A DNA stretch of 64,000 nucleotides from Synechococcus sp. MEDNS5 (GTDB lineage Bacteria > Cyanobacteriota > Cyanobacteriia > PCC-6307 > Cyanobiaceae): contig NZ_CP047952.1 in the NCBI RefSeq assembly GCF_014279875.1, positions 992,001-1,056,000 of the forward strand, given 5' to 3'. The notes under the pieces are model-generated. The model was not told the DNA's origin. It saw only the letters and a program-made list of their open reading frames with translations, and did not search any database. Position 1 is the first letter of the stretch, and each line of letters begins with the position of its first letter. Positions 51,510 through 62,803 of the stretch are shown here, one piece after another. Position numbers and translations under genes: made by a program.

Positions 51510-52873
51510 CGATGCAAGAGGCGCGACCGCACCCTGTTCCAATCGCGCATCACCCAGAGCGAGAGCATCACCAGAACAGCGGGAATCAGCCCCATGCTCA
51601 TGCGGATCATGACCAGGGCTCGCTCAGGCTGGGCTTCTCCCAGGCTTGCTTCGTAGCCACTCCAGCTGAGTATCAGGCCCAGCAGGAACACTGAAACGGC
51701 ACTTCCAAGCTTCTGGATCTGAACCATGAAGGCTGTGATCAGACCGGCGGGATGGTTCGGCTCCGCATCTACAGCCTCCGGCAGAAAGGCCCAAGGAAGC
51801 AAATAGGCCGTGGCAGCGCAGAGACCCAGCAGCACGAGGGTGACCAGCAAGGCGAGAAGCTGGGTTCGATTGGCAGCGGCCAGCGCGTTTCCGCTGATGG
51901 GGAGCGCCGGCAGCACCATCGCGATGATGCAGAACACGATCCAGCCACAACCACCGGCCTGAAGCGCCAGCAAGCGGCTTCGTTGTGCGGCCACCCGATT
52001 CCAGATCCAGAGTCCTGCCATGGCGCTGATCTGAAACGGGATCAGCAAGAACGTGCTCCAGCGATGGGGGAGATGCAGGGCATCCGAGAGGTAGATGATC
52101 GACACAGGCTGCATCAGTTGAAGGGCTCCCCACCCCAGCAGGTACATCGCCACCACCCGCAGAAACAGTCCGTTGGCTTTGAGGCTGCGCAGCTGAGGGA
52201 TGAGAGCCTGATGCGTCGCTGCGGGTCGCTGGCAGCGACTCGCAGCAGGCGCCAATCCAATCGCACTGGCCACACTGCCGAACACCAGGATCAGGCCCGA
52301 GGCCAAACCGATCCGCAGGTATCCAGGTGCACCTTCATGGCTCAGTGCTGCGCCAAGCAGAAGCCCAAGCAGGCTGGCCAGAACGGACCCCGTGAAGCGG
52401 TAAGCGTTGAGGCGGGTGCGCAGCGTTTCATCATTGGTCAGCTCCGTAGCCAGGGCTGAGTAGGGCAGGTTCACCCCGGAGTAGGTGCTCTGAAAGATCG
52501 CCGCTACCGCTACAAACCAGAGAAACCGCCAAGGATCACTGAACGGTGGCACCCACCACATCAGGGTCATGGACAGCCCCAGGGGTGCCGCACTGGAGAT
52601 CATCCACGGCAGACGCGGGCCCCAGCGTCCGCCAGTGCGATCGCTGAGCAAACCGATCATCTGATCACTGAACACATCCCAGACGCGAACCACCATGAGC
52701 ACCGTTCCGGCCAGCCATGCGGGCAACCCAGCGACTGCCGTGTAAAAAACGAAGAGATAGAAGCCCACGACGGCCGTGGCCATGCCAGTTCCGGCATCAC
52801 CAATGCCGTAGGCAAGCAGCACTCTGCGCATGAGCGGAGCGGGAGCATCGGAGAGATCCAGCGCAATGCCCAT
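51506..52873 (-). CDS. GPH (MelB-type) sugar:cation symporter-like MFS protein
   Basis: A 455-residue, twelve-span transporter. RVWDVFSDQMIGLLSDRTGGRWGPR (residues 63-87) is the MelB-type signature with the D-P/D-x-G-x-R-like motifs (DQMIG replaces the more usual DPxxG), and YRFTGSVLASL lies in TM5. GPH members take up melibiose, lactose or pentosides with Na+ or H+. The substrate in this phototroph is unknown. It converges with the CobW gene (4-bp overlap). Confidence 0.85.
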   Translation of the reverse strand: MGIALDLSDAPAPLMRRVLLAYGIGDAGTGMATAVVGFYLFVFYTAVAGLPAWLAGTVLMVVRVWDVFSDQMIGLLSDRTGGRWGPRLPWMISSAAPLGLSMTLMWWVPPFSDPWRFLWFVAVAAIFQSTYSGVNLPYSALATELTNDETLRTRLNAYRFTGSVLASLLGLLLGAALSHEGAPGYLRIGLASGLILVFGSVASAIGLAPAASRCQRPAATHQALIPQLRSLKANGLFLRVVAMYLLGWGALQLMQPVSIIYLSDALHLPHRWSTFLLIPFQISAMAGLWIWNRVAAQRSRLLALQAGGCGWIVFCIIAMVLPALPISGNALAAANRTQLLALLVTLVLLGLCAATAYLLPWAFLPEAVDAEPNHPAGLITAFMVQIQKLGSAVSVFLLGLILSWSGYEASLGEAQPERALVMIRMSMGLIPAVLVMLSLWVMRDWNRVRSRLLHR

Positions 52874-52913
52874 ATGCGATTTTGCCCTTTGCTTGCGATC
52901 TTCGGCGATCGAA

Positions 52914-53522
52914 TCAGTTCATCACCACAAGGCGCTGGGTTCCTGACCGTTCGATCAGAGTGGAGAGATCGAGCATGTCGTTGCGGTTCACCAGACCGAT
53001 ACATCCAAGGGTGCCGCTCTGGGTATTCAGGCGACCGGCGCTGGGATCCTGGTGGATTCCCAGAACTCTGCGACCGGTCGTGAAGGTGGGCTCGATGCTG
53101 ATCCAGACAGGGCCAAGCTCGGGGTAGGCCCCGTCGGCGAGGGGTTCGACCGGGCCGACGCTGTAAGTGCCTGCTGGCAGGGGAGCCCGGCTTCCCATGC
53201 GGTCGCGGTCAGCGTTCTGACGATTGGCCCGTCCGCTGACGGCGTCAAAACGACGCGTGGGTTTCCCTGGAATCTCGAGCCTCAGATCCCAGATCGGATC
53301 GCCGGTGGAGGCGATGCGGCGGTCGGTCCGTTCCAGAACGAGGGTGGGGACAGGCTCCGCCCGCGGTGGAACGGGCTCGAGCAGGGCCATCAGGGACGGA
53401 CGCTCGCCATCCTGACGATCAGCGCGCGCTGCGGGGGTCACTCCCAGTGCGAGCAACGCTGTGGCCACAACTGGGAATGCAAGGCAACGGCAGAGGGTTC
53501 GGCGATCCCGGACGATTTGCAT
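52914..53522 (-). CDS. Exported L,D-transpeptidase (YkuD) family protein
   Basis: A 202-residue protein. The signal peptide covers residues 9-34 (LAFPVVATALLALGVTPAARA). Residues about 100-200 form a YkuD-like domain with GIHQDPSAGRLNTQSGTLGCIGL, carrying His, Ser-x-x-x-x-Gly and the catalytic Cys of L,D-transpeptidases (HxxS...GCI). Such enzymes make 3-3 peptidoglycan cross-links or tether proteins; fungal-type and small YkuD variants may differ. The ATG at 53522 is preferred over TTG 53558. Confidence 0.82.
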   Translation of the reverse strand: MQIVRDRRTLCRCLAFPVVATALLALGVTPAARADRQDGERPSLMALLEPVPPRAEPVPTLVLERTDRRIASTGDPIWDLRLEIPGKPTRRFDAVSGRANRQNADRDRMGSRAPLPAGTYSVGPVEPLADGAYPELGPVWISIEPTFTTGRRVLGIHQDPSAGRLNTQSGTLGCIGLVNRNDMLDLSTLIERSGTQRLVVMN

Positions 53523-53545
53523 TCCGCTGACAGAAAAACTGACCT

Positions 53546-53573
53546 GTCTTACGGGCAAACATTATCGGTTCAA
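53546..53573 (-). promoter_or_regulatory. Candidate promoter of the L,D-transpeptidase gene
   Basis: On the minus strand, TTGAAC (53573-53568) is followed after 16 bp by TAAGAC (53551-53546), 23 bp before the ATG. The leader contains a GACAG...CTGTC hairpin with a TTTTT loop. Confidence 0.35.
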
Positions 53574-53591
53574 AAATGAATAAACGGTTTC

Positions 53592-54140
53592 TCAGCCGGC
53601 CCCCGTTGTGCGCCAGTCGAGGCCAGGGATGTGAGCCACGATCGACGCTGTGGTTTTCATGTAGTCCGCATAGTTGGGGCAGCATTTGAGCAGTTCACGC
53701 TCTTCCCGGTGCGCCTTGCCGGTGAGGACAACCACCAGCGACAAGAGAAGCGCCAAGTGCAGCAAACTTCCCCAGGCGAGGGCTACTCCCAAGGAACACA
53801 CCAAAACCGCTCTGTAGAGAGGATGACGGCAGTGGGCATAAACCCCCGTGGTGACCAGCGCGGCCCCTTTTTTCGGCTCCGGCAAGGGCGAGAGACTGGG
53901 GCCCAGGGCGCGGAATCCCTGAACCGCCAATCCCAATCCCACGGCGAAGAGGATCAGTCCGCCCATCGTCACCACCGGTGGCCAATGGACCCCTAGGGAG
54001 TCCGTGCTCGGCCAAGCCGGCGCCAGATGTCCCACGATCAGCAGCAGCTGGGCCACCAGCCACCATTCCCCCTGTTGATTGCTGAACAGGCTTCTCCAGC
54101 TCAGGTTCCAGCCTTGGAACGCCCGGTTCCAATCCGCCAT
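53592..54140 (-). CDS. Isoprenylcysteine/PEMT-type membrane methyltransferase
   Basis: A 182-residue membrane protein with four hydrophobic spans. GVYAHCRHPLYRAVLVCSLG (residues about 101-120) contains the RHPxY SAM-binding motif of ICMT and phospholipid methyltransferase families, and the C-terminal REERELLKCCPNYADYMKTT has the conserved EE/Y segment. It methylates a membrane-associated small molecule or lipid; the substrate is not known. The start is 29 bp from the divergent SDR start. Confidence 0.84.
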   Translation of the reverse strand: MADWNRAFQGWNLSWRSLFSNQQGEWWLVAQLLLIVGHLAPAWPSTDSLGVHWPPVVTMGGLILFAVGLGLAVQGFRALGPSLSPLPEPKKGAALVTTGVYAHCRHPLYRAVLVCSLGVALAWGSLLHLALLLSLVVVLTGKAHREERELLKCCPNYADYMKTTASIVAHIPGLDWRTTGAG

Positions 54141-54169
54141 GGGGTGGCCTTCCTCAACGTGCTCTCACT

Positions 54170-54874
54170 ATGCGAACGATTCTGATCACAGGTGCGAGTC
54201 GGGGTATCGGCCGGTCGATTGCGACTTTGCTGCTGTCTCAGGGGTATCACCTTTGTCTGGCTGTTCGCGATCCGGATGGCCTCCGCGACACAGCCTTGGA
54301 TCCCCGTCTCCATGGCGATTCTTTATCGCTTTGTCGCTACGACGCCAGGGATCCAGGCGATGCCGAGCGGGCTGTGCAGGCGGTGCAGCAGGCGTTCGGA
54401 GCACTCGACACCCTGATTCACTGCGCGGGAATCCTCCGGAGCACACCGTTGTTGTTCAGTGATGCGCAAACCGACGAGCCCGACGAGCTCTGGAGTGTGA
54501 ATGTGAAGGGCCCTTGGCTGCTGACGCGAGCAGCCTGGCCAGCGCTTGTTGCTTCACAAACGGGTCGAATTCAGGTTCTGGTCTCCATGAGCGGCAAACG
54601 CTGCAAGGGCACGTTGGCGGGCTATTCCGCCAGCAAGTTCGCCTTGATGGGCCTCTGCCAGGCGATGCGCAACGAAGGCTGGGACCAGGGAATTCGCGTG
54701 ACCGCCATCTGTCCAGGCTGGGTGAACACCGATATGGCACGCGGAACAAGTCCTCTGGCACCGGAGTTGATGACGCAGCCGGGCGACCTTGCATCCCTCT
54801 GCTGTCAACTGCTCAATTTGCCGGCATCCGCCGTGCCCTTTGAGCTGGCGGTGAATGCCACGTTGGAACGCTGA
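54170..54874 (+). CDS. Short-chain dehydrogenase/reductase
   Basis: A 234-residue classical SDR. ILITGASRGIGRSI (TGxxxGIG) binds NAD(P), HCAGIL is the NAG-equivalent, SMSGKR carries the catalytic Ser and YSASK the Tyr-x-x-x-Lys pair. PGWVNTDMA is the substrate-loop motif. It reduces or oxidises an alcohol/ketone substrate that cannot be predicted. The gene is divergent from the methyltransferase and convergent with the small exported protein gene (2-bp gap). Confidence 0.9.
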   Translation: MRTILITGASRGIGRSIATLLLSQGYHLCLAVRDPDGLRDTALDPRLHGDSLSLCRYDARDPGDAERAVQAVQQAFGALDTLIHCAGILRSTPLLFSDAQTDEPDELWSVNVKGPWLLTRAAWPALVASQTGRIQVLVSMSGKRCKGTLAGYSASKFALMGLCQAMRNEGWDQGIRVTAICPGWVNTDMARGTSPLAPELMTQPGDLASLCCQLLNLPASAVPFELAVNATLER

Positions 54875-54876
54875 CC

Positions 54877-55224
54877 TCAATCGAGCGGGATGTCGCCGCG
54901 GGCGCAGACCGTGTTCCAGCACAGCGTTCCATCCGCACTCCAGTGCGTCTGCACCTTGGCCCAAGCGGTTTGCTCGCCAATCTTCATCTCCATCGTGCCG
55001 CTGCCATCGTGCTGAAATCGCACGACTTGGTTGCTGAACGCCAGTTCCCAGCGTGCCCCCGGTTGTTCGCTCACGTAGTGGCAGGGCGACCAGGACTGAT
55101 TGGCGTGGCGGCATTCCATGGTGACGGCCACAGCGGATTCAGCCCGCGTAGGAGCGCCAAAGACTGCCACTGAGACCATCAGCAGAGCGACGGATGGAAG
55201 AACAGCGTTGTTGGGTGCAGTCAC
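54877..55224 (-). CDS. Small exported hypothetical protein
   Basis: A 115-residue protein with an N-terminal signal peptide (about 9-28, ALLMVSVAVFGAPTRAES). The mature part is beta-rich and has four cysteines (MECRHANQSWSPCHYV and TLCWNTVCARG) that could form two disulfides. No family is recognised. It faces purS across a 96-bp divergent intergenic region. Confidence 0.72.
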   Translation of the reverse strand: MTAPNNAVLPSVALLMVSVAVFGAPTRAESAVAVTMECRHANQSWSPCHYVSEQPGARWELAFSNQVVRFQHDGSGTMEMKIGEQTAWAKVQTHWSADGTLCWNTVCARGDIPLD

Positions 55225-55320
55225 TCGTTGCAGGGCTCACTCACCTGTTTTCAACGTGCGGCCGTCTGCGCCTTTGCGGACCCCTGGCCTGTCAAGATTT
55301 AACAATTCCGTTCAGAGCTC

Positions 55321-55575
55321 GTGCCGCGTTTTCAAGCCCGCGTTCTGGTGCAACTGCGCCCATCGGTCCTCGATCCCGCAGGGGAAGCGACGAGTGCCGC
55401 TGCCCAGCGTCTTGGTGTGGATGGGATTGCCCATCTCCGCATCGGTAAAGCTGTGGAACTGGAATTGGAGGCACCTGACGAGGCGGAGGCGCGTCGCAGG
55501 GTTGAACTGCTCAGTGATCGACTTCTGGCCAACCCTGTGATCGAGAACTGGACTCTGGAGCTCTCACAGTCATGA
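55321..55575 (+). CDS. purS: Phosphoribosylformylglycinamidine synthase subunit PurS
   Basis: An 84-residue protein matching Pur[26 protein letters not shown] and [16 protein letters not shown] are typical. PurS bridges PurQ and PurL in the FGAM synthase complex and positions the glutaminase. Translation begins at GTG 55321. It overlaps purQ by 4 bp (ATGA). The purL partner is outside the visible window. Confidence 0.94.
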
Positions 55576-56225
55576 CCATCGGGGTTGTCGTTTTCCCAGG
55601 ATCAAACTGTGACCGCGATGTCCGCTGGGCCACAGAAGGGTGTCTCGGTCACCCGACCCAGTATCTCTGGCACGAGGATCGTGATCTCACTGGGTTGGAG
55701 GCCGTCGTGCTGCCGGGCGGATTCAGTTACGGCGACTATTTGCGCTGCGGCGCCATTGCCCGCTTTGCACCAGTGCTCGAGTCCTTGAAACGTTTCGCGT
55801 CTGAGGGGGGCCGTGTTCTGGGAATCTGCAACGGATTTCAGGTGCTGACGGAACTCGGTCTGCTGCCTGGTGCCCTCACGCGGAACCGTCATCTCCATTT
55901 CATCTGCGAGTCCACCCCCCTTGCGGTGGTGAGTGATCGCACCCCCTGGCTGGCGACTTGCGCGCGCGATGACCAGTTCTCCCTGCCGATCGCACACGGG
56001 GAGGGCCGTTTTCAGTGCAGCGACGACACTCTCAAGAAGCTGCAGGACGATGACGCCATTGCCCTGCGGTATTGCCGTAACCCCAATGGTTCTGTCGCCG
56101 ATATCGCTGGTATCACCAATGCACAGGGCAATGTGCTGGGTTTGATGCCACACCCGGAGCGCGCTTGCGATCCAGTGACTGGAAGTACAGCCGGTCGCGC
56201 GATCCTGGAGGCTCTGCTCTCCTGA
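55572..56225 (+). CDS. purQ: Phosphoribosylformylglycinamidine synthase glutaminase PurQ
   Basis: A 217-residue class I amidotransferase. [11 protein letters not shown] holds the nucleophile Cys (GICNG), [17 protein letters not shown] is the oxyanion region and LMPHPERA carries the His-Glu of the triad. It supplies ammonia to PurL in the fourth step of purine synthesis. It overlaps purS by 4 bp and is followed after 3 bp by the S66 peptidase gene, so all may be co-transcribed. Confidence 0.96.
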
Positions 56226-56228
56226 GTC

Positions 56229-57206
56229 ATGCGCCGTCGATCGCTGCTGGAGTTGGCTTCGTTAGCAGTCGGTTCCGGGGCGATGGCCTCACTCTGGCCT
56301 GGTGGTGTGAGGGCACGCCAAACGCCCCGATCGCTTTCACCTCTACAACCTCTGGCGAAAGGCTCGCGGCTGCGTGCTCTTAATCCAGGAACCTGGATGG
56401 ATCCAGACACGGATTTCAATCCTCTCGTTCAACGCTGTGAGGCCCAGGGGTGGGTCTTGGAGATCCCTGACGACGTGCGCGGTCAGTGGCAGTGGTTTTC
56501 GGGAACCGATGCTCAGCGACGCCGGGTTCTCGAGGAGGCCTGGAATGATCCCACTCTGGATGGGGTGATGTATGTGGGTGGCGGCTGGGGCGCGGCCAGG
56601 GTGCTGGAAGCAGGCGTTCAGTTTCCGAAACGATCCTTCTGGGCGCTTGGTTTTTCAGACAGCAGCGCCCTGCTGTTAGCTCAGTGGAAAGCCGGACTTC
56701 TTGGCGCTATTCATGGCTCCACAGGTGGGCCGGAGGAGCAGTGGCAACGCACAGTGTCGCTTTTGAAAGGTGAGCCGACAGCACCGTTGCAGGGACGCCC
56801 GATGCATGCTGGTTCAGCCCAGGGCCCCCTGGTGGTGACCAATCTCACGGTGGCGACGCATCTGATCGGAACCCCATGGTTTCCATCGCTTCAGGGATCT
56901 GTTTTGGTGCTTGAGGATGTGGGCGAGGCTCCCTACCGCGTGGATCGCATGCTGACGCAGTGGCGGAGTGCGGGGCTCTTGAACAACGTGGCGGGTGTGG
57001 CCTGCGGTCGTTTCAGCTGGAAGGAAGACGACATCCTTCCCGGTGATTTTTCGATGGCTGGGATTCTCGAGGAACGGCTCGGTGATCTCGGGATTCCCCT
57101 GCTGCTCGATCTGCCATTGGGCCATGGATTACCCAATCAATCCCTGCCTCTGGGCGTGCAGGCACAGCTGAATGGGAGCGATGGCACCCTTCAACTTCTT
57201 CGCTGA
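56229..57206 (+). CDS. S66-family LD-carboxypeptidase (LdcA/MccF-like), exported
   Basis: A 325-residue protein. The N-terminus MRRRSLLELASLAVGSGAM looks like a Tat-type signal (RRRS plus hydrophobic run). The S66 catalytic triad is present in order: the Ser in LGFSDSSALL, the Glu in LEDVGEAPYR and the His in LGHGLP. Members trim the terminal D-Ala of the peptidoglycan tetrapeptide (LdcA) or inactivate microcin C (MccF). It follows purQ after 3 bp. The usual LdcA start is cytoplasmic, so an exported form is somewhat unusual. Confidence 0.87.
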   Translation: MRRRSLLELASLAVGSGAMASLWPGGVRARQTPRSLSPLQPLAKGSRLRALNPGTWMDPDTDFNPLVQRCEAQGWVLEIPDDVRGQWQWFSGTDAQRRRVLEEAWNDPTLDGVMYVGGGWGAARVLEAGVQFPKRSFWALGFSDSSALLLAQWKAGLLGAIHGSTGGPEEQWQRTVSLLKGEPTAPLQGRPMHAGSAQGPLVVTNLTVATHLIGTPWFPSLQGSVLVLEDVGEAPYRVDRMLTQWRSAGLLNNVAGVACGRFSWKEDDILPGDFSMAGILEERLGDLGIPLLLDLPLGHGLPNQSLPLGVQAQLNGSDGTLQLLR

Positions 57207-57212
57207 CTCAAC

Positions 57213-58337
57213 ATGGCCGACCTCACCATTGCCAACAGTGTCTGTGATCTGATCCTTGGCGATGTGCGCGAACATCTGCCGCTGGAGAGGATTCCGCTCG
57301 AAGGTGATGTGCTGGGTCTGGGCACAACCACGAGTGTCGACAATGGAGAACTGACCTTCCTGCGCGATGGCGATCAGCAGACCGCGATCTGGCGCTGCGT
57401 CGCTCACGACGGCAGCATCGTCAGACTCACCCCTGGAGATGGCAGCGGCCACTTCCCTTATGTGTGCTTCACCGGCGATGCCACGTCTTTGCGTCGACCC
57501 GCTGATCTCGGAGCCCTGGGAGACCTGGAGGGCCGACCACTTCAAGCCCTTGTAGAGGAAGCCATCGCCCAGGGGCAGCGTCTTGGCACCCTGGAGGCGG
57601 CACCGATCTACGGCGTGCGTCTGATCGCGCACTGGCATGAACTGGTGATCACCGTGGCCTCCAAGCTCTGCATGGGACAGCAGCGCAGAAACCTCGGGAT
57701 CGCTTCCAGTGAGGCAGGCACCACAGTCGCCGGTCTCAGCCTCTACGACATGCTTCAGCACTACAGGCTTTCACCACTGCCCAGTGAAGATTCAAGCGAT
57801 CCGATCCGTTATCTCGGCCGCTCTATGCACTGGGATTGCTGCGGATTCTTTGATACGGAGCCGGAACAGGGACGGGTGACCGTGCCACAACCAGGTGCCC
57901 ATCTTCATCTGCATGGCTGCAGCACCGACCTGGCTTACGGCGGTCATCTCCACCATGAACATCCTTCAACCCGCCTGGAACGTTTGGAGTGCCTTTGGAT
58001 CTACCCGCTGCGCAGCATCAGGACACTGGCCAGCGACCTGGCAATTCAGCAGCTTGCCTACAGAGAGGGAGAGCTCCAGTTCCGTGTCTGCAACATCGGC
58101 AGCATGGATGTCAGTGATGTGGGCGTCGCTGTCGTGATCGATGACCGCTACAGCAACCATCGCTACGTGCGCATCCCGTGGCTCAAAGCCGGTGAAGGCG
58201 AGGACTTCACGATGCCCCTGGATCTGCCCGTGGGTGATCACAGGATCTCCGTGATCGCTGACCCCGAACAGATGGTGATCGAAGTGGAAGAGCGCAGGAC
58301 CAACAATCGGATGGACCTGGATGTGGTGACTGTTTAA
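57213..58337 (+). CDS. Acetolactate-decarboxylase-like domain fused to CARDB domain
   Basis: A 374-residue protein. Residues about 5-255 follow the alpha-acetolactate decarboxylase plan: GDVLGLGTTTSVDNGEL (31-47), PIYGVRL (131-137, the conserved Arg) and the zinc motif HLH-x10-H (His232, His234, His245 in HLHLHGCSTDLAYGGH). Residues about 287-370 form a CARDB-like Ig-fold adhesion domain (FRVCNIGSMDVSDVGVAVVID). Acetolactate decarboxylase makes acetoin from branched-chain precursors; no acetoin genes are nearby. No signal peptide is seen. The preceding S66 gene ends 6 bp upstream. Confidence 0.78.
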   Translation: MADLTIANSVCDLILGDVREHLPLERIPLEGDVLGLGTTTSVDNGELTFLRDGDQQTAIWRCVAHDGSIVRLTPGDGSGHFPYVCFTGDATSLRRPADLGALGDLEGRPLQALVEEAIAQGQRLGTLEAAPIYGVRLIAHWHELVITVASKLCMGQQRRNLGIASSEAGTTVAGLSLYDMLQHYRLSPLPSEDSSDPIRYLGRSMHWDCCGFFDTEPEQGRVTVPQPGAHLHLHGCSTDLAYGGHLHHEHPSTRLERLECLWIYPLRSIRTLASDLAIQQLAYREGELQFRVCNIGSMDVSDVGVAVVIDDRYSNHRYVRIPWLKAGEGEDFTMPLDLPVGDHRISVIADPEQMVIEVEERRTNNRMDLDVVTV

Positions 58338-58340
58338 GCA

Positions 58341-58370
58341 CAAAAAAGGGAGACCTTTTGGCCTCCCTTG
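58341..58370. terminator. Bidirectional terminator between the CARDB gene and fba
   Basis: Stem GGGAGaCC/GGcCTCCC (one mismatch, TTTT loop) at 58348-58367, with A6 before it and a short T pair after. The A-run makes it a good minus-strand terminator for fba; the plus-strand side is weaker. Confidence 0.7.
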
Positions 58371-58393
58371 GCGTGATGACTCGATCGCAATGA

Positions 58394-59467
58394 TCAGGCA
58401 GCGACAGCAGCCTTGGGATCGAGAGCGCCTTTGGCGTAAAGACCGGCGTAGTGGGTGATGCTGGCCTGCTTGATCTTGCTGGCGTTGCCGGCGGCCCAGA
58501 ACTGCTGGTAGCGGTCGAGGCACACCTGCTTCATGTACTTGCGAGCCGGCTTGTTGAAGTGGCGGGGATCGAAGTTGGCGGGATCAGCCATGGCCGCTTC
58601 GCGCACAGCAGCGGTGAAGGCGAGGCGGTTGTCGGTGTCGATGTTCACCTTGCGCACGCCGTTGCGGATGCCTTCCTGGATCTCTTCGACGGGAACGCCG
58701 TAGGTCTCGGGGATGGAACCACCGTGCTTGTTGATCATCTCCAACCATTCCTGGGGAACGGAGGAAGAGCCATGCATCACCAGGTGGGTGTTGGGGATGG
58801 CCTTGTGGATTTCAGCGATGCGGCTGATGGCCAGCACTTCACCGGTGGGCTTGCGGGTGAACTTGTAAGCGCCGTGGCTGGTACCGATGGCGATGGCCAG
58901 GGCGTCGCACTTGGTTTTGGCAACGAAGTCAGCAGCCTCAGCGGGATCGGTGAGAAGCATGTCCTTGGAGAGCTCACCTTCGAAACCGTGGCCGTCCTCA
59001 GCCTCACCCTTGCCGGTTTCCAGGGAACCCAGGCAGCCCAGCTCACCTTCAACGCTCACACCCACGGAGTGGGCGAAATCCACCACTTGCTTGGTGACAG
59101 CCACGTTGTACTCGTAGCTGGCGGGAGTCTTGGCATCGGCTTCCAGGGAGCCATCCATCATCACGGAGGTGAAACCGTTGATGGCAGCGGAGTAGCAGGT
59201 ATCGGGAGCGTTGCCGTGGTCCTGGTGCATCACCACGGGGATGTGGGGATAGGTCTCGGTGGCGGCCAGGATCAGGTGACGCAGAAAGATCTCACCGGCG
59301 TAGCTGCGAGCGCCGCGGGAGGCCTGCAGGATCACGGGGCTGTCGGTCTCATCAGCCGCTTCCATGATCGCCTGCACCTGCTCCAGGTTGTTCACGTTGA
59401 ACGCAGGAATGCCGTAGCCGTTTTCGGCGGCGTGGTCGAGCAGAAGCCGAAGCGGAACGAGCGCCAT
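58394..59467 (-). CDS. fba: Class II fructose-1,6-bisphosphate aldolase
   Basis: A 357-residue zinc aldolase of the Calvin-cycle/glycolytic type, also cleaving sedoheptulose bisphosphate in phototrophs. [12 protein letters not shown] contains the zinc and catalytic residues, [12 protein letters not shown] the second zinc His, and [16 protein letters not shown] the substrate-binding loop. Its GC-poor leader has AGGTTCTTTCCC before the ATG and a CGTCTT/AAGACG hairpin. The terminator at 58341 closes it. Confidence 0.97.
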
Positions 59468-59553
59468 GGGAAAGAACCTCGAGGTGGAACGTCTTGAAGA
59501 CGAATGGGGGCGAATCTACCGGATCTAACCCCGAGATTCTTGTCTCGCCTCGA

Positions 59554-60639
59554 TCAGCGTCCTAAGGCCATCTCAAGGCAGCGGTCGCATGCCTTCTGAC
59601 TGGCCAGCCCTTCCAACAGACCTGGCACCATCGGCCGGCCGCTGCGCATGCTTTCCGCCCACCAACCTTGCAGCCGAGCGACAGGGGCAACGCGTCCGTC
59701 ACTCCAGGTTTTCGCAAAGCGGAACTCTTCATCCGCCTGAACGCTGCGAGGCGGTTCGCCGTCCCGTTGAAGGGTGAGGGAGAACCCGTGCACGTAGTCC
59801 TTCTGGTTTTCACTGCCCAGCTTCAAACTTCCTTCCGATCCGTAGATCTCCAGCCAGCAGCCCCTGCCATTGCGCGCTACCGATGCCAAGGCCACCTGTG
59901 CGGCCAGCGGTGCTCCCTGATGGGACGTGAGCGTGGTGTTGATCAGGGCGATGTCTTCCGCTGTGACGGCCCGAACGTCGCCGCTGGCATCCGGCCTGTT
60001 CGCGATGGCGGTTTGCGTGATTGATTGCAGGGTCTGCACCGGACCGATCAGCCAGGCCAGCATGTCGAAGGCATGGGTTCCAAGGGCACCCAGCACACCG
60101 CCGCCTTCGTCGGCTTTGGCGTACCAGTTCCATGGGCGCTGAGGATTGGCTCGACTGCTCATCAGCCAATCGAGCCTTGCAAGCCAGGGGGTCCCGATCG
60201 CGCCGCTGTTCAGAAGCCGTTCTGCCTGCTGGAATAGCGGTACAGCTCGATATTCAAAATCCACCGCCACAGTGAGGCCCGATGCCAATGCTGTGCGCTG
60301 CAGGTCAGCCACCTGACCCGCATTCAAGGCAACAGGCTTTTCAAGCAGCAGATGCTTCCCTGCGGCCAGAGCCCTTAGGGCCAGCTCGTAGCGCGGCCCA
60401 GGCGGTGTGGCGATGATCACCGCTTGCACATCGGGATCCTCAAGCAGGGCATCGAAGGCGTCATATCCCTTCAAGCCCCTGTCTCCAACCATTTGATCCA
60501 GGCGGTCTCTACGGGGATGCCACAACGCCACGGCCTTGAAATCAGCGTTCGCTTCCAGAGCGGGCAGGTGAACCGTTGCCCCGAAACCGAGTCCGGCAAC
60601 GGCGACACCAATTGGTTCTCGATCAGAGCGCAAAGCCAT
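59554..60639 (-). CDS. Gfo/Idh/MocA-family oxidoreductase
   Basis: A 361-residue NAD(P)-dependent dehydrogenase. VAVAGLGFGATVHLPAL is the Rossmann start, LLLEKPVALNAGQ is the EKP motif with the catalytic-site Lys, and GGGVLGALGTHAFDMLAWL is the substrate His/Asp region. The family oxidises sugars, inositol or sugar amines, or reduces biliverdin; substrate unknown. It is 86 bp upstream of fba on the same strand and follows the small exported protein by 33 bp. Confidence 0.9.
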   Translation of the reverse strand: MALRSDREPIGVAVAGLGFGATVHLPALEANADFKAVALWHPRRDRLDQMVGDRGLKGYDAFDALLEDPDVQAVIIATPPGPRYELALRALAAGKHLLLEKPVALNAGQVADLQRTALASGLTVAVDFEYRAVPLFQQAERLLNSGAIGTPWLARLDWLMSSRANPQRPWNWYAKADEGGGVLGALGTHAFDMLAWLIGPVQTLQSITQTAIANRPDASGDVRAVTAEDIALINTTLTSHQGAPLAAQVALASVARNGRGCWLEIYGSEGSLKLGSENQKDYVHGFSLTLQRDGEPPRSVQADEEFRFAKTWSDGRVAPVARLQGWWAESMRSGRPMVPGLLEGLASQKACDRCLEMALGR

Positions 60640-60671
60640 GAAGCATCAGGGGGTAAGACAACAAGGCGGAA

Positions 60672-61070
60672 TCAGGCCAAGCCGGAGCGACACACAGCAT
60701 TGATCACCTCAGAGATCAGATCGTCGTCAGCCGGCGCTTCCCAGGAGGCCTTGAAACGGGGGAGACCGTTTTTCTGCGTGTCCCGATACAGCCGTTGGTC
60801 GCAATCAATTTCCATCACGACCAGGGTCCCTAATGCCGGTGATTCATCCTCCGTTCTCAGGCTGTAACGGCTGAGAACGGAAACGTTGCCGTCCCGGGTG
60901 CGTCGAACACTGCCGGCGTCCCACCACTGTTGGCCCTCCAAACTGGATGGAACCTCTCGCCAATCAACCGGGCCTGCCAATGCTGGCCCCCCAAGCAGGA
61001 CAAGCAGGAGTGGCACAACCAACACGCTGATCCACTGGGCGGATTTGAAACGGGGAGTCAGTCGCATCAA
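60672..61070 (-). CDS. Small exported protein, conserved in cyanobacteria
   Basis: A 132-residue protein. Signal peptide residues about 12-34 ([18 protein letters not shown]). The mature part contains [16 protein letters not shown] and a beta-rich core with [12 protein letters not shown] and a second cysteine in NAVCRSG, which may form a disulfide. No function is recognised; a periplasmic or lumenal protein is likely. It starts inside the accD stop (4-bp overlap) so is expressed with accD. Confidence 0.75.
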
Positions 61071-61945
61071 ACTGCCGCACTCCCCTGCAGGCAGCCATGC
61101 AGCTTCATCAGCGTGGCGAGCGTGGATTTCAGCTGGGTGCGAGGAACGATTGTGTCCACGAATCCGTGGTCCTGGAGGTACTCCGCTGTCTGGAAGTTTT
61201 CGGGCAATTTTTCCCTCAGAGTCTGTTCGATCACCCGGCGGCCGGCGAAGCCGATCAGAGCCTTCGGTTCCGCCAGGATCAGATCACCGAGCATGGCGAA
61301 ACTGGCGGTCACGCCTCCGGTGGTGGGGTGGGTGAGCAGGGGCACGTAAAGCACGCCTGCTTCGCGATGCCGTTCCAGGGCACCGGAGATCTTGGCCATC
61401 TGCATCAGGCTGAGCATCCCCTCTTGCATGCGTGCTCCCCCTGACGCGCAGACGATGAGCAGCGGCAGGCGCTTGGCTGTGGCTTGTTCGACCAGGCGGG
61501 TCAGCTTTTCTCCCACAACCGATCCCATGGATCCGCCCATGAAGCGGAAATCCATCACCGCCAGGGCCATGGGGATGTCGTCCACTCGGCAGAAGCCTGT
61601 GATCACTCCATCGCGGAGGCCTGTACCGGCTTGGGTCTCCTGCAGCCGGTCGGCGTAGGCGCGACGGTCCTTAAAACCAAGAGGATCGGTTGGGGCCAGT
61701 TCCTCGTCAATCGCTTCAAAACTGCCTTCATCGGCGATCAGGGCGATGCGTTCAGCGCTGTGGATCCGGTGGTGATGTCCGCAATTGCTGCAAACACTGG
61801 CATTGGCAAGCAGATCTTTGCGATACACAACCTGGCCGCATTCAGGACATTTGCTCCAGAGGCCGTCGCCTTCCTCGGGCTCCTGGGCAACCTTCACGAC
61901 GGACTGTTCCTTGCGGCGATCGGCGAACCAGTCGAATAGCGACAC
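61067..61945 (-). CDS. accD: Acetyl-CoA carboxylase carboxyltransferase subunit beta
   Basis: A 292-residue subunit. The N-terminal zinc ribbon [14 protein letters not shown]...CSNCGHH has four cysteines and the crotonase-like core contains [12 protein letters not shown] and [11 protein letters not shown]. With AccA it transfers CO2 from biotin to acetyl-CoA, the first step of fatty acid synthesis. It starts 36 bp after the prepilin peptidase stop and overlaps the next gene by 4 bp. Confidence 0.96.
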
Positions 61946-61981
61946 GCAATGCCTTCTACTGGAACCATTTAAGACGACACA

Positions 61982-62803
61982 TCAGGCTCCTCCCATCAGA
62001 GCAAGCCAGCGGTGCCACCACCACGACGCTCCCATCAGCCATGTCATCCAGACCCCGAAGGCGATGAAAGGACCGAAGGGGAAGGGTTGCCTGGGCCCAA
62101 GACGGCCCGTCCATCGGCCCAAAGTTCCAACCGCGGCACCGGAGAACACCGCTAGAGCCATGGAGATGCCGAGGCCACCCAAACCGAGCCAGGCCCCAGC
62201 CATCGCAGCCAGTTTGGCGTCGCCAAGACCAAGAGCAGGTTGGCCCAGGATTCGTTCGGCAAGTGCGCTCAGGCCCTCCATCACCAGAAGTCCGGCCGCG
62301 CTGGCGATCAGATGATTCAGGAGAATCGCCTCTGGTTGGTCACTGCCGCCTCCCCAGGCCAGAAACGCTGTGGCGATGACGCCGCAGATCACCCCTGCTC
62401 GGCAAATCGGTTCCGGCAACCACAGGTGGTCAAGATCAATCAGAACCAGCGGCAGCAGGAGACTTACCAGCACAAGCCCCATCAGCAGCGTGATCAGCAC
62501 CACGCTGTTTTCGCTGCTGCGTTGGGCAGGGATCAGGGCGCTGAGCCACAGGCAGCCACTAAAGATTTCCACGATTGGGTAACGGGCCGAGATCGCTGCT
62601 GTGCAGTCGCGACATCGGCCGCGCAGAAGCAACCACCCAAGCACCGGAACGTTGTCATGCCAACGCACGGGATGACCGCAGCTCGGGCAGTGACTTCCTG
62701 GCCAAATCGGAGATTCCTGCCTTGGAAGTCGCCACACCACGACGTTGGTGAAACTGCCGATGCAGGCGCCGAAGAGGGCCAGGGAGATCACCATAAGAGC
62801 CAC
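61982..62803 (-). CDS. pilD: Prepilin peptidase / N-methyltransferase PilD
   Basis: A 273-residue membrane enzyme. The N-terminal cytoplasmic loop has the paired CxxC zinc motifs (CPSCGHP and CRDC). The catalytic aspartates are in LIDLDHLWLPE and GLGDAKLAAMAG, and eight or so membrane spans cover the rest. It cleaves the leader of type IV pilin-like prepilins and methylates the new N-terminus. The upstream gene overlaps its start by 1 bp. Pilin genes are not in the window. Confidence 0.95.
   Translation of the reverse strand: MALMVISLALFGACIGSFTNVVVWRLPRQESPIWPGSHCPSCGHPVRWHDNVPVLGWLLLRGRCRDCTAAISARYPIVEIFSGCLWLSALIPAQRSSENSVVLITLLMGLVLVSLLLPLVLIDLDHLWLPEPICRAGVICGVIATAFLAWGGGSDQPEAILLNHLIASAAGLLVMEGLSALAERILGQPALGLGDAKLAAMAGAWLGLGGLGISMALAVFSGAAVGTLGRWTGRLGPRQPFPFGPFIAFGVWMTWLMGASWWWHRWLALMGGA

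Follow-up and report, generated by a model that had tools for sequence, protein, structure and literature searches.

The gene at 57213-58337 on the forward strand of the window, the whole stretch of 64,000 nucleotides of Synechococcus sp. MEDNS5 DNA that was analysed, encodes a protein in which a fold of the acetolactate decarboxylase (ALDC) type is almost certainly fused to a CARDB domain. Within a known fold superfamily, the protein represents a new family whose domain architecture is unusual. In the favoured reading, to which a probability of about 0.5 is assigned, it belongs to the ALDC superfamily as a soluble zinc decarboxylase whose active site is non-canonical, forming a family of its own and distinct from canonical ALDC; its chemistry is probably related but not identical to that of ALDC. 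The case for a zinc decarboxylase that has a remodelled active site and acts on an acetolactate-like acid is built on the fold and the CARDB fusion, on the histidine triad and Glu46, and on the absence of the ALDC arginine, Arg145, from every family row aligned. The first-pass annotation of this DNA, made from the sequence alone, had described such a fusion; its observations are confirmed except for the role that it gave to Arg136, and its interpretation is partly supported.

The open reading frame list and its translation give a coding sequence of 374 amino acids (P0001) that starts with ATG, and the call of an ALDC-superfamily and CARDB fusion is backed by matches across the order and by the pN/pS ratios. 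Six bases separate its ATG from the stop codon of the upstream gene (56229-57206, forward strand), a carboxypeptidase-like gene of the LD-carboxypeptidase type, which matches the NCBIfam entry PRK11253, muramoyltetrapeptide carboxypeptidase, at 106 bits and thus below the cut-off of 378. The two open reading frames preceding it, which by their sequences were taken to be purS and purQ, are packed equally tightly. The carboxypeptidase-like gene and the fusion gene are probably co-transcribed, and the neighbour is regarded as context, outside the function. A promoter scan returned 0 sites and a terminator scan 2, against 2.7 in shuffled sequences, and both were set aside as evidence; Rfam gave no match across 52000-62000. 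The translation of P0001 shows no visible signal peptide, which suggests that the protein is probably cytosolic.

Profile searches detect both parts of the protein. The ALDC profile PF03306 scores only 11.8 bits in P0001 (E 0.15) against a Pfam cut-off of 25 bits, a value reached by none of the 15 members scored (range 11.8-24.1 bits), and the NCBIfam search assigned no family to P0001. The CARDB profile PF07705 scores 28.2 bits at residues 283-365, above its cut-off of 22.7, which bears out the CARDB-like domain proposed earlier; this cut-off was passed by 12 of the 15 members scored, the other three falling below. When 27 relatives were scanned at E up to 1, CARDB was matched in all 27 and PF03306 in 26, with best E values of 9.3e-9 and 1.9e-5, respectively. 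These matches, and the recovery of both folds by structure comparison, place the domains and motifs beyond chance. Sequences in the PDB, searched with P0001 and with a profile from alignment A1, yielded no relative, and a match to a ribosomal protein (best E 0.22) was dismissed as chance. Alignment A1 holds P0001 and 26 of the 30 loci of the order search, L001 (identical), L004, L013 and L019 (stop) being left out.

The ALDC-like domain comprises residues 1-272 (57213-58028, forward strand). An AlphaFold model of full-length P0001, built with 45 sequences, reached a pLDDT of 86.5 and a pTM of 0.83, and residues 1-272 modelled alone reached 83.5 and 0.85. The whole model matches nine ALDC-type entries with Z 17.2-18.5 over 210-218 residues, while residues 1-272 alone match the same nine with Z 18.5-19.5 over 203-206 residues, and Foldseek E values to ALDC entries lie between 3.8e-10 and 6.1e-9; one of the nine, 1xv2, carries the description ‘similar to ALDC’ only. 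The protein shares with ALDC (EC 4.1.1.5, PF03306; 4bt2, 5xne, 6inb and 6j92) the fold, the zinc-type histidine triad and the position of Glu65, but differs from it in sequence (about 17% of residues identical across the structural match), in having Thr147 for Arg145, in showing no clear Glu253 and in the added CARDB domain. The least conserved stretch of the domain is a variable loop at residues 155-175 (57675-57737, forward strand), modelled with low confidence (pLDDT under 50 at residues 155-158 and 160-175).

The human protein C11orf54, or PTD012 (DUF1907, PF08925; 1xcr), is a weaker fold match than ALDC, with Z 13.6 to residues 1-272, an rmsd of 4.1 over 219 residues and 12% identity; the folds that come next start at Z 7.1. 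PF08925 was not among the families matched by the 27 members at E up to 1. A scan for DUF1907 in 291 genomes of the class gave no match, in its 14 controls either, and is given no weight. A three-histidine zinc site reported for C11orf54 in a portion of PMC12435205 parallels the histidine triad of P0001. Proteins of the PPC/DUF296 type (2h6l, 3htn, 2dt4 and others) rank after ALDC and PTD012 in the comparison of residues 1-272, at Z 6.1-7.1, and some of them were solved as metal-containing or putative DNA-binding proteins. Judging from the model, it is as if the ALDC fold and the smaller PPC/DUF296 fold were related.

CARDB domains are known mostly from surface or secreted proteins; here the domain follows an enzyme fold in a protein without a visible signal peptide. 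It spans residues 269-374 (58017-58334, forward strand) and superposes on the CARDB structure 3idu with Z 13.9 and an rmsd of 1.9 over 100 residues, as well as on 2kl6 with Z 13.2, and so has the same Ig-like fold as known CARDB (PF07705) structures (3idu and 2kl6, PF1109 of Pyrococcus furiosus). The Ig fold expected of this segment by the first-pass annotation was therefore found, and its picture of an ALDC fold with a histidine triad joined to an Ig-like module holds for both halves. Within the domain, D299 and W323 are invariant among the 48 family rows, 46 of which also have R320.

Residue equivalences were taken from five MAFFT modes applied to 48 family rows and 17 canonical cyanobacterial ALDCs, the residue numbers of 4bt2 being taken from an alignment. 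The family rows consist of alignment A2, which is P0001 with 44 of the 46 loci of the one-genome-per-species scan (L076, partial, and L077, broken, were left out), plus L027, L111 and L112. Alignment A4 holds 17 of 27 loci, with L092, L095-L101, L103 and L104 excluded as fragments, as a near copy or for having no open reading frame past the script filter, and alignment A6 holds the window and 28 loci of A2. The motifs named by the first-pass annotation are present in the translation as GDVLGLGT at 31-38, Y133-x-x-R136, H232-L-H234 and H245; the motif that it wrote as HLH-x10-GGH exists and has the literal form HLH-x8-GGH, ten residues separating H234 from H245.

His232-Leu-His234 (codons at 57906-57914, forward strand), with two putative zinc ligands, and His245 (57945-57947, forward strand), the putative third, align with the zinc histidines of ALDC and are kept in 48/48 family rows and 17/17 canonical rows, an equivalence which rests on sequence alignment and on the range of the fold match, not on atom-by-atom superposition. 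Glu65, Arg145 and Glu253 of 4bt2 are catalytic residues of ALDC. Glu46 (57348-57350, forward strand) aligns with Glu65, and its column is Glu in every row of both sets (48/48 and 17/17). The Arg145 column is occupied by Thr147 (57651-57653, forward strand) in all five MAFFT modes, and is Thr in all 48 family rows as opposed to Arg in all 17 canonical ones; hhalign against canonical ALDC places Thr147 identically, in a match of modest strength (E 0.0022, probability 13%). Arg136 (57618-57620, forward strand) had been proposed as the catalytic arginine, and this assignment is not supported: the residue aligns with Lys134 of 4bt2, in a column that is Arg in 47 of the 48 family rows, Tyr in one, and 13 Arg, 3 Lys and 1 Gln in the canonical rows. 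Of the residues put forward for comparison with ALDC, the three histidines and Glu46 fall into place in the alignment and Arg136 does not meet Arg145.

The column force-aligned to Glu253 of 4bt2 is Glu in 13 of the 48 family rows, and the whole model matches the fold of 4bt2 only as far as its residue 240; the ALDC tail bearing Glu253 has no clear counterpart, and CARDB occupies its place. Four further residues, H21, W141, R159 and H183, are invariant in the 48 rows, and in three MAFFT modes none of the 17 canonical sequences has them at the aligned positions; R159 lies in or beside the low-confidence loop, where its placement is uncertain. K151 is also invariant in the family but not specific to it, since 15 of the 17 canonical rows have a basic residue, Arg or Lys, at the same position.

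A mechanism can be proposed in which a zinc ion held by His232, His234 and His245 would bind the substrate, a 2-hydroxy-3-oxo (or 3-oxo) acid, through its hydroxyl and keto oxygens; the metal would also stabilise the enediolate remaining after loss of CO2, and Glu46 would serve in proton transfer. The carboxylate normally held by Arg145 might instead be held by R159, by R320 of the CARDB domain, by K151 or by R136; the columns of R136 and K151 are mostly basic in canonical ALDCs as well. The CARDB domain may form a lid or a partner surface, and the substrate would be acetolactate or a related short acid that thiamine enzymes produce in the metabolism around pyruvate. A change of substrate within this fold has a precedent, since C11orf54 is described as a beta-ketogulonate decarboxylase in part of a commentary (PMC12435205). 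The suggestion of a different substrate or chemistry, already made from the sequence, appears more likely given Thr147 in 48/48 aligned rows. A fuller version of the favoured reading is possible, though it must be held tentatively: a new zinc decarboxylase family of picocyanobacteria and marine gammaproteobacteria, in which the ALDC arginine is gone, CARDB replaces the tail and supplies or shapes part of the site, and the substrate is a product of pyruvate and thiamine enzymes other than acetolactate.

The loss of Arg145 could also mean the loss of decarboxylase activity. On such an account, which we consider rather unlikely, the family would retain the fold with other chemistry or none, as a zinc hydrolase, isomerase or lyase, or as a binder of a metal or ligand that uses CARDB to contact a partner. 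It draws on the loss of both the arginine and the tail, on the long-standing annotation of PTD012 as an ester hydrolase (as given in a section of PMC12435205) and on the appearance of PPC-type folds, some of them putative DNA-binding or metal-containing proteins, next in rank at Z 6-7; however, the conservation of the zinc set and of Glu46 in 48/48 rows is seemingly more than a binding role needs.

The metabolic setting bears on the substrate. The host genome, a single contig of 2.44 Mb, contains no PF03306 match above the cut-off and no close AlsS, the best match being 28%. The earlier remark that acetoin genes were not visible stands to this extent, and has to be qualified by the presence of a ThDP 2-oxo-acid decarboxylase resembling pyruvate and indolepyruvate decarboxylases (G000, contig C1, 856697-858400; 6698-8404 of L119), adjoined on the opposite strand by an iron-type alcohol dehydrogenase. 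The nearest NCBIfam entries, both under their cut-offs, are indolepyruvate decarboxylase for the former and lactaldehyde reductase for the latter. The two genes represent a possible ethanol route in the host.

A link between the family and pyruvate/ThDP chemistry is drawn from gene order in a distant genus and from co-occurrence in the order and the genus. In one member of the distant genus (G406), a ThDP 2-oxo-acid decarboxylase gene, 46% identical to the host enzyme, lies 107 bases upstream of the homologue, and such a gene is also found upstream of the broken copy in the other (G415). With a limit of E 1e-100, the ThDP enzyme has relatives in 29 of the 299 genomes of the order, namely in 17/50 carriers of the family against 12/249 others (p 6e-8, with kinship ignored); within the host's own genus the figures are 8/8 carriers against 7/16 others (p 0.0095, again ignoring kinship). 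At E 1e-100 the enzyme is absent from 33 of the 50 carriers of the order.

The same data were weighed with respect to an ordinary ALDC, which would convert acetolactate to acetoin by means of other residues, in fermentation or in clearing acetolactate that leaks from IlvB or from the ThDP decarboxylase. Canonical ALDC occurs in 37 of the 299 genomes; five hold both it and the CARDB form, and both are intact only in G045 and G096. Within the genus, one kind or the other is found in 14/15 genomes with the ThDP enzyme against 2/9 without it (broken copies counted), as if the two were interchangeable, and the fold and zinc motif of ALDC are present. Nevertheless, the joint presence of both intact kinds, 2 seen against 4.6 expected, is not significantly rare (p 0.28, kinship ignored), and two genomes do keep both. 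A close AlsS was found among 12 genomes checked only in G045, the source of the query, and in G096, both of which carry canonical ALDC, and none in the host; G406 and G415 gave a 35% match. With Thr in 48/48 rows of the Arg145 column and Glu in only 13/48 of the Glu253 column, we judge an ordinary ALDC to be unlikely.

Some observations on the canonical genes may be added. In two picocyanobacteria, G045 (3631-6193 of L115) and G056 (3565 to about 6037 of L116), the canonical ALDC gene is immediately preceded by an AlsS-like gene, and in G045 the pair is followed by a ThDP 2-oxo-acid decarboxylase gene on the other strand. In three genomes one kind is whole and the other fragmented: the canonical ALDC is broken in G030 and G055, and G216 has a broken CARDB form. 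It looks as if one kind had replaced the other.

The family itself is found in 50 of the 299 genomes of the order (matches to P0001 at E 0.001). The one-genome-per-species collection gave 46 loci, with Synechococcus WH7803 (L032, 89%) as the nearest named relative; seven of the loci come from gammaproteobacterial bins, some titled Haliea or Halioglobus. These seven copies (L066-L071 and L073) are full or nearly full in length, with 44-53% identity to P0001, and form one group (100/98) in a midpoint-rooted tree of the 48 rows whose basal fork is open; a transfer between the phyla, in either direction, appears likely from these sequences. Profile A1 matches 14 of the 386 genomes of a phylum sample, those outside the host's taxonomic family being G334, G406 and G415, the last with an internal stop. 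No relative was found among phage records, plasmid records and viral contigs at the limits used, and a phage or plasmid origin was dropped for that reason. In picocyanobacteria a gene read from its sequence as gyrA-like stands directly upstream in 14 of the 34 clustered loci (in 34 of 41 loci the gene lay inside the cluster, and in the other 7 it did not), and genomes of the WH7803 type have a carboxypeptidase-like gene upstream of the homologue; conserved neighbours gave no functional clue there. Neighbours mostly differ among the gammaproteobacterial bins, with upstream genes common to L066 and L070 and to L067 and L069. A decayed or mis-called reading frame, or a chance run-together of two genes, might be suspected from the broken or partial copies in 6 of the 50 carriers of the order (G022, G062, G064, G111, G216 and G274), but is extremely improbable and was rejected as contradicted by conservation and selection: cyanobacterial and gammaproteobacterial copies of the full-length fusion share 41-54% identity with P0001, pN/pS is 0.16-0.24 against five relatives, and 52 columns are invariant across the 48 rows.

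A search of open-licence PMC papers found none that combined ‘CARDB’ with ‘acetolactate decarboxylase’. Deep Black Sea strains of Synechococcus have been credited with acetolactate decarboxylase, in the relevant portions of PMC6776005 and PMC8955281 with the ordinary kind only, and the surface Black Sea isolate BSA11S carries the CARDB form (L058). If the favoured reading of a zinc decarboxylase is true, some picocyanobacteria would carry an unrecognised enzyme of this type, missed by profile annotation because the members scored fall below the PF03306 cut-off. The ALDC fold would then be able to function when its customary arginine is missing and an Ig-like domain replaces the tail. The family would also provide a testable starting point for asking what Synechococcus does with pyruvate in darkness or when oxygen is lacking.
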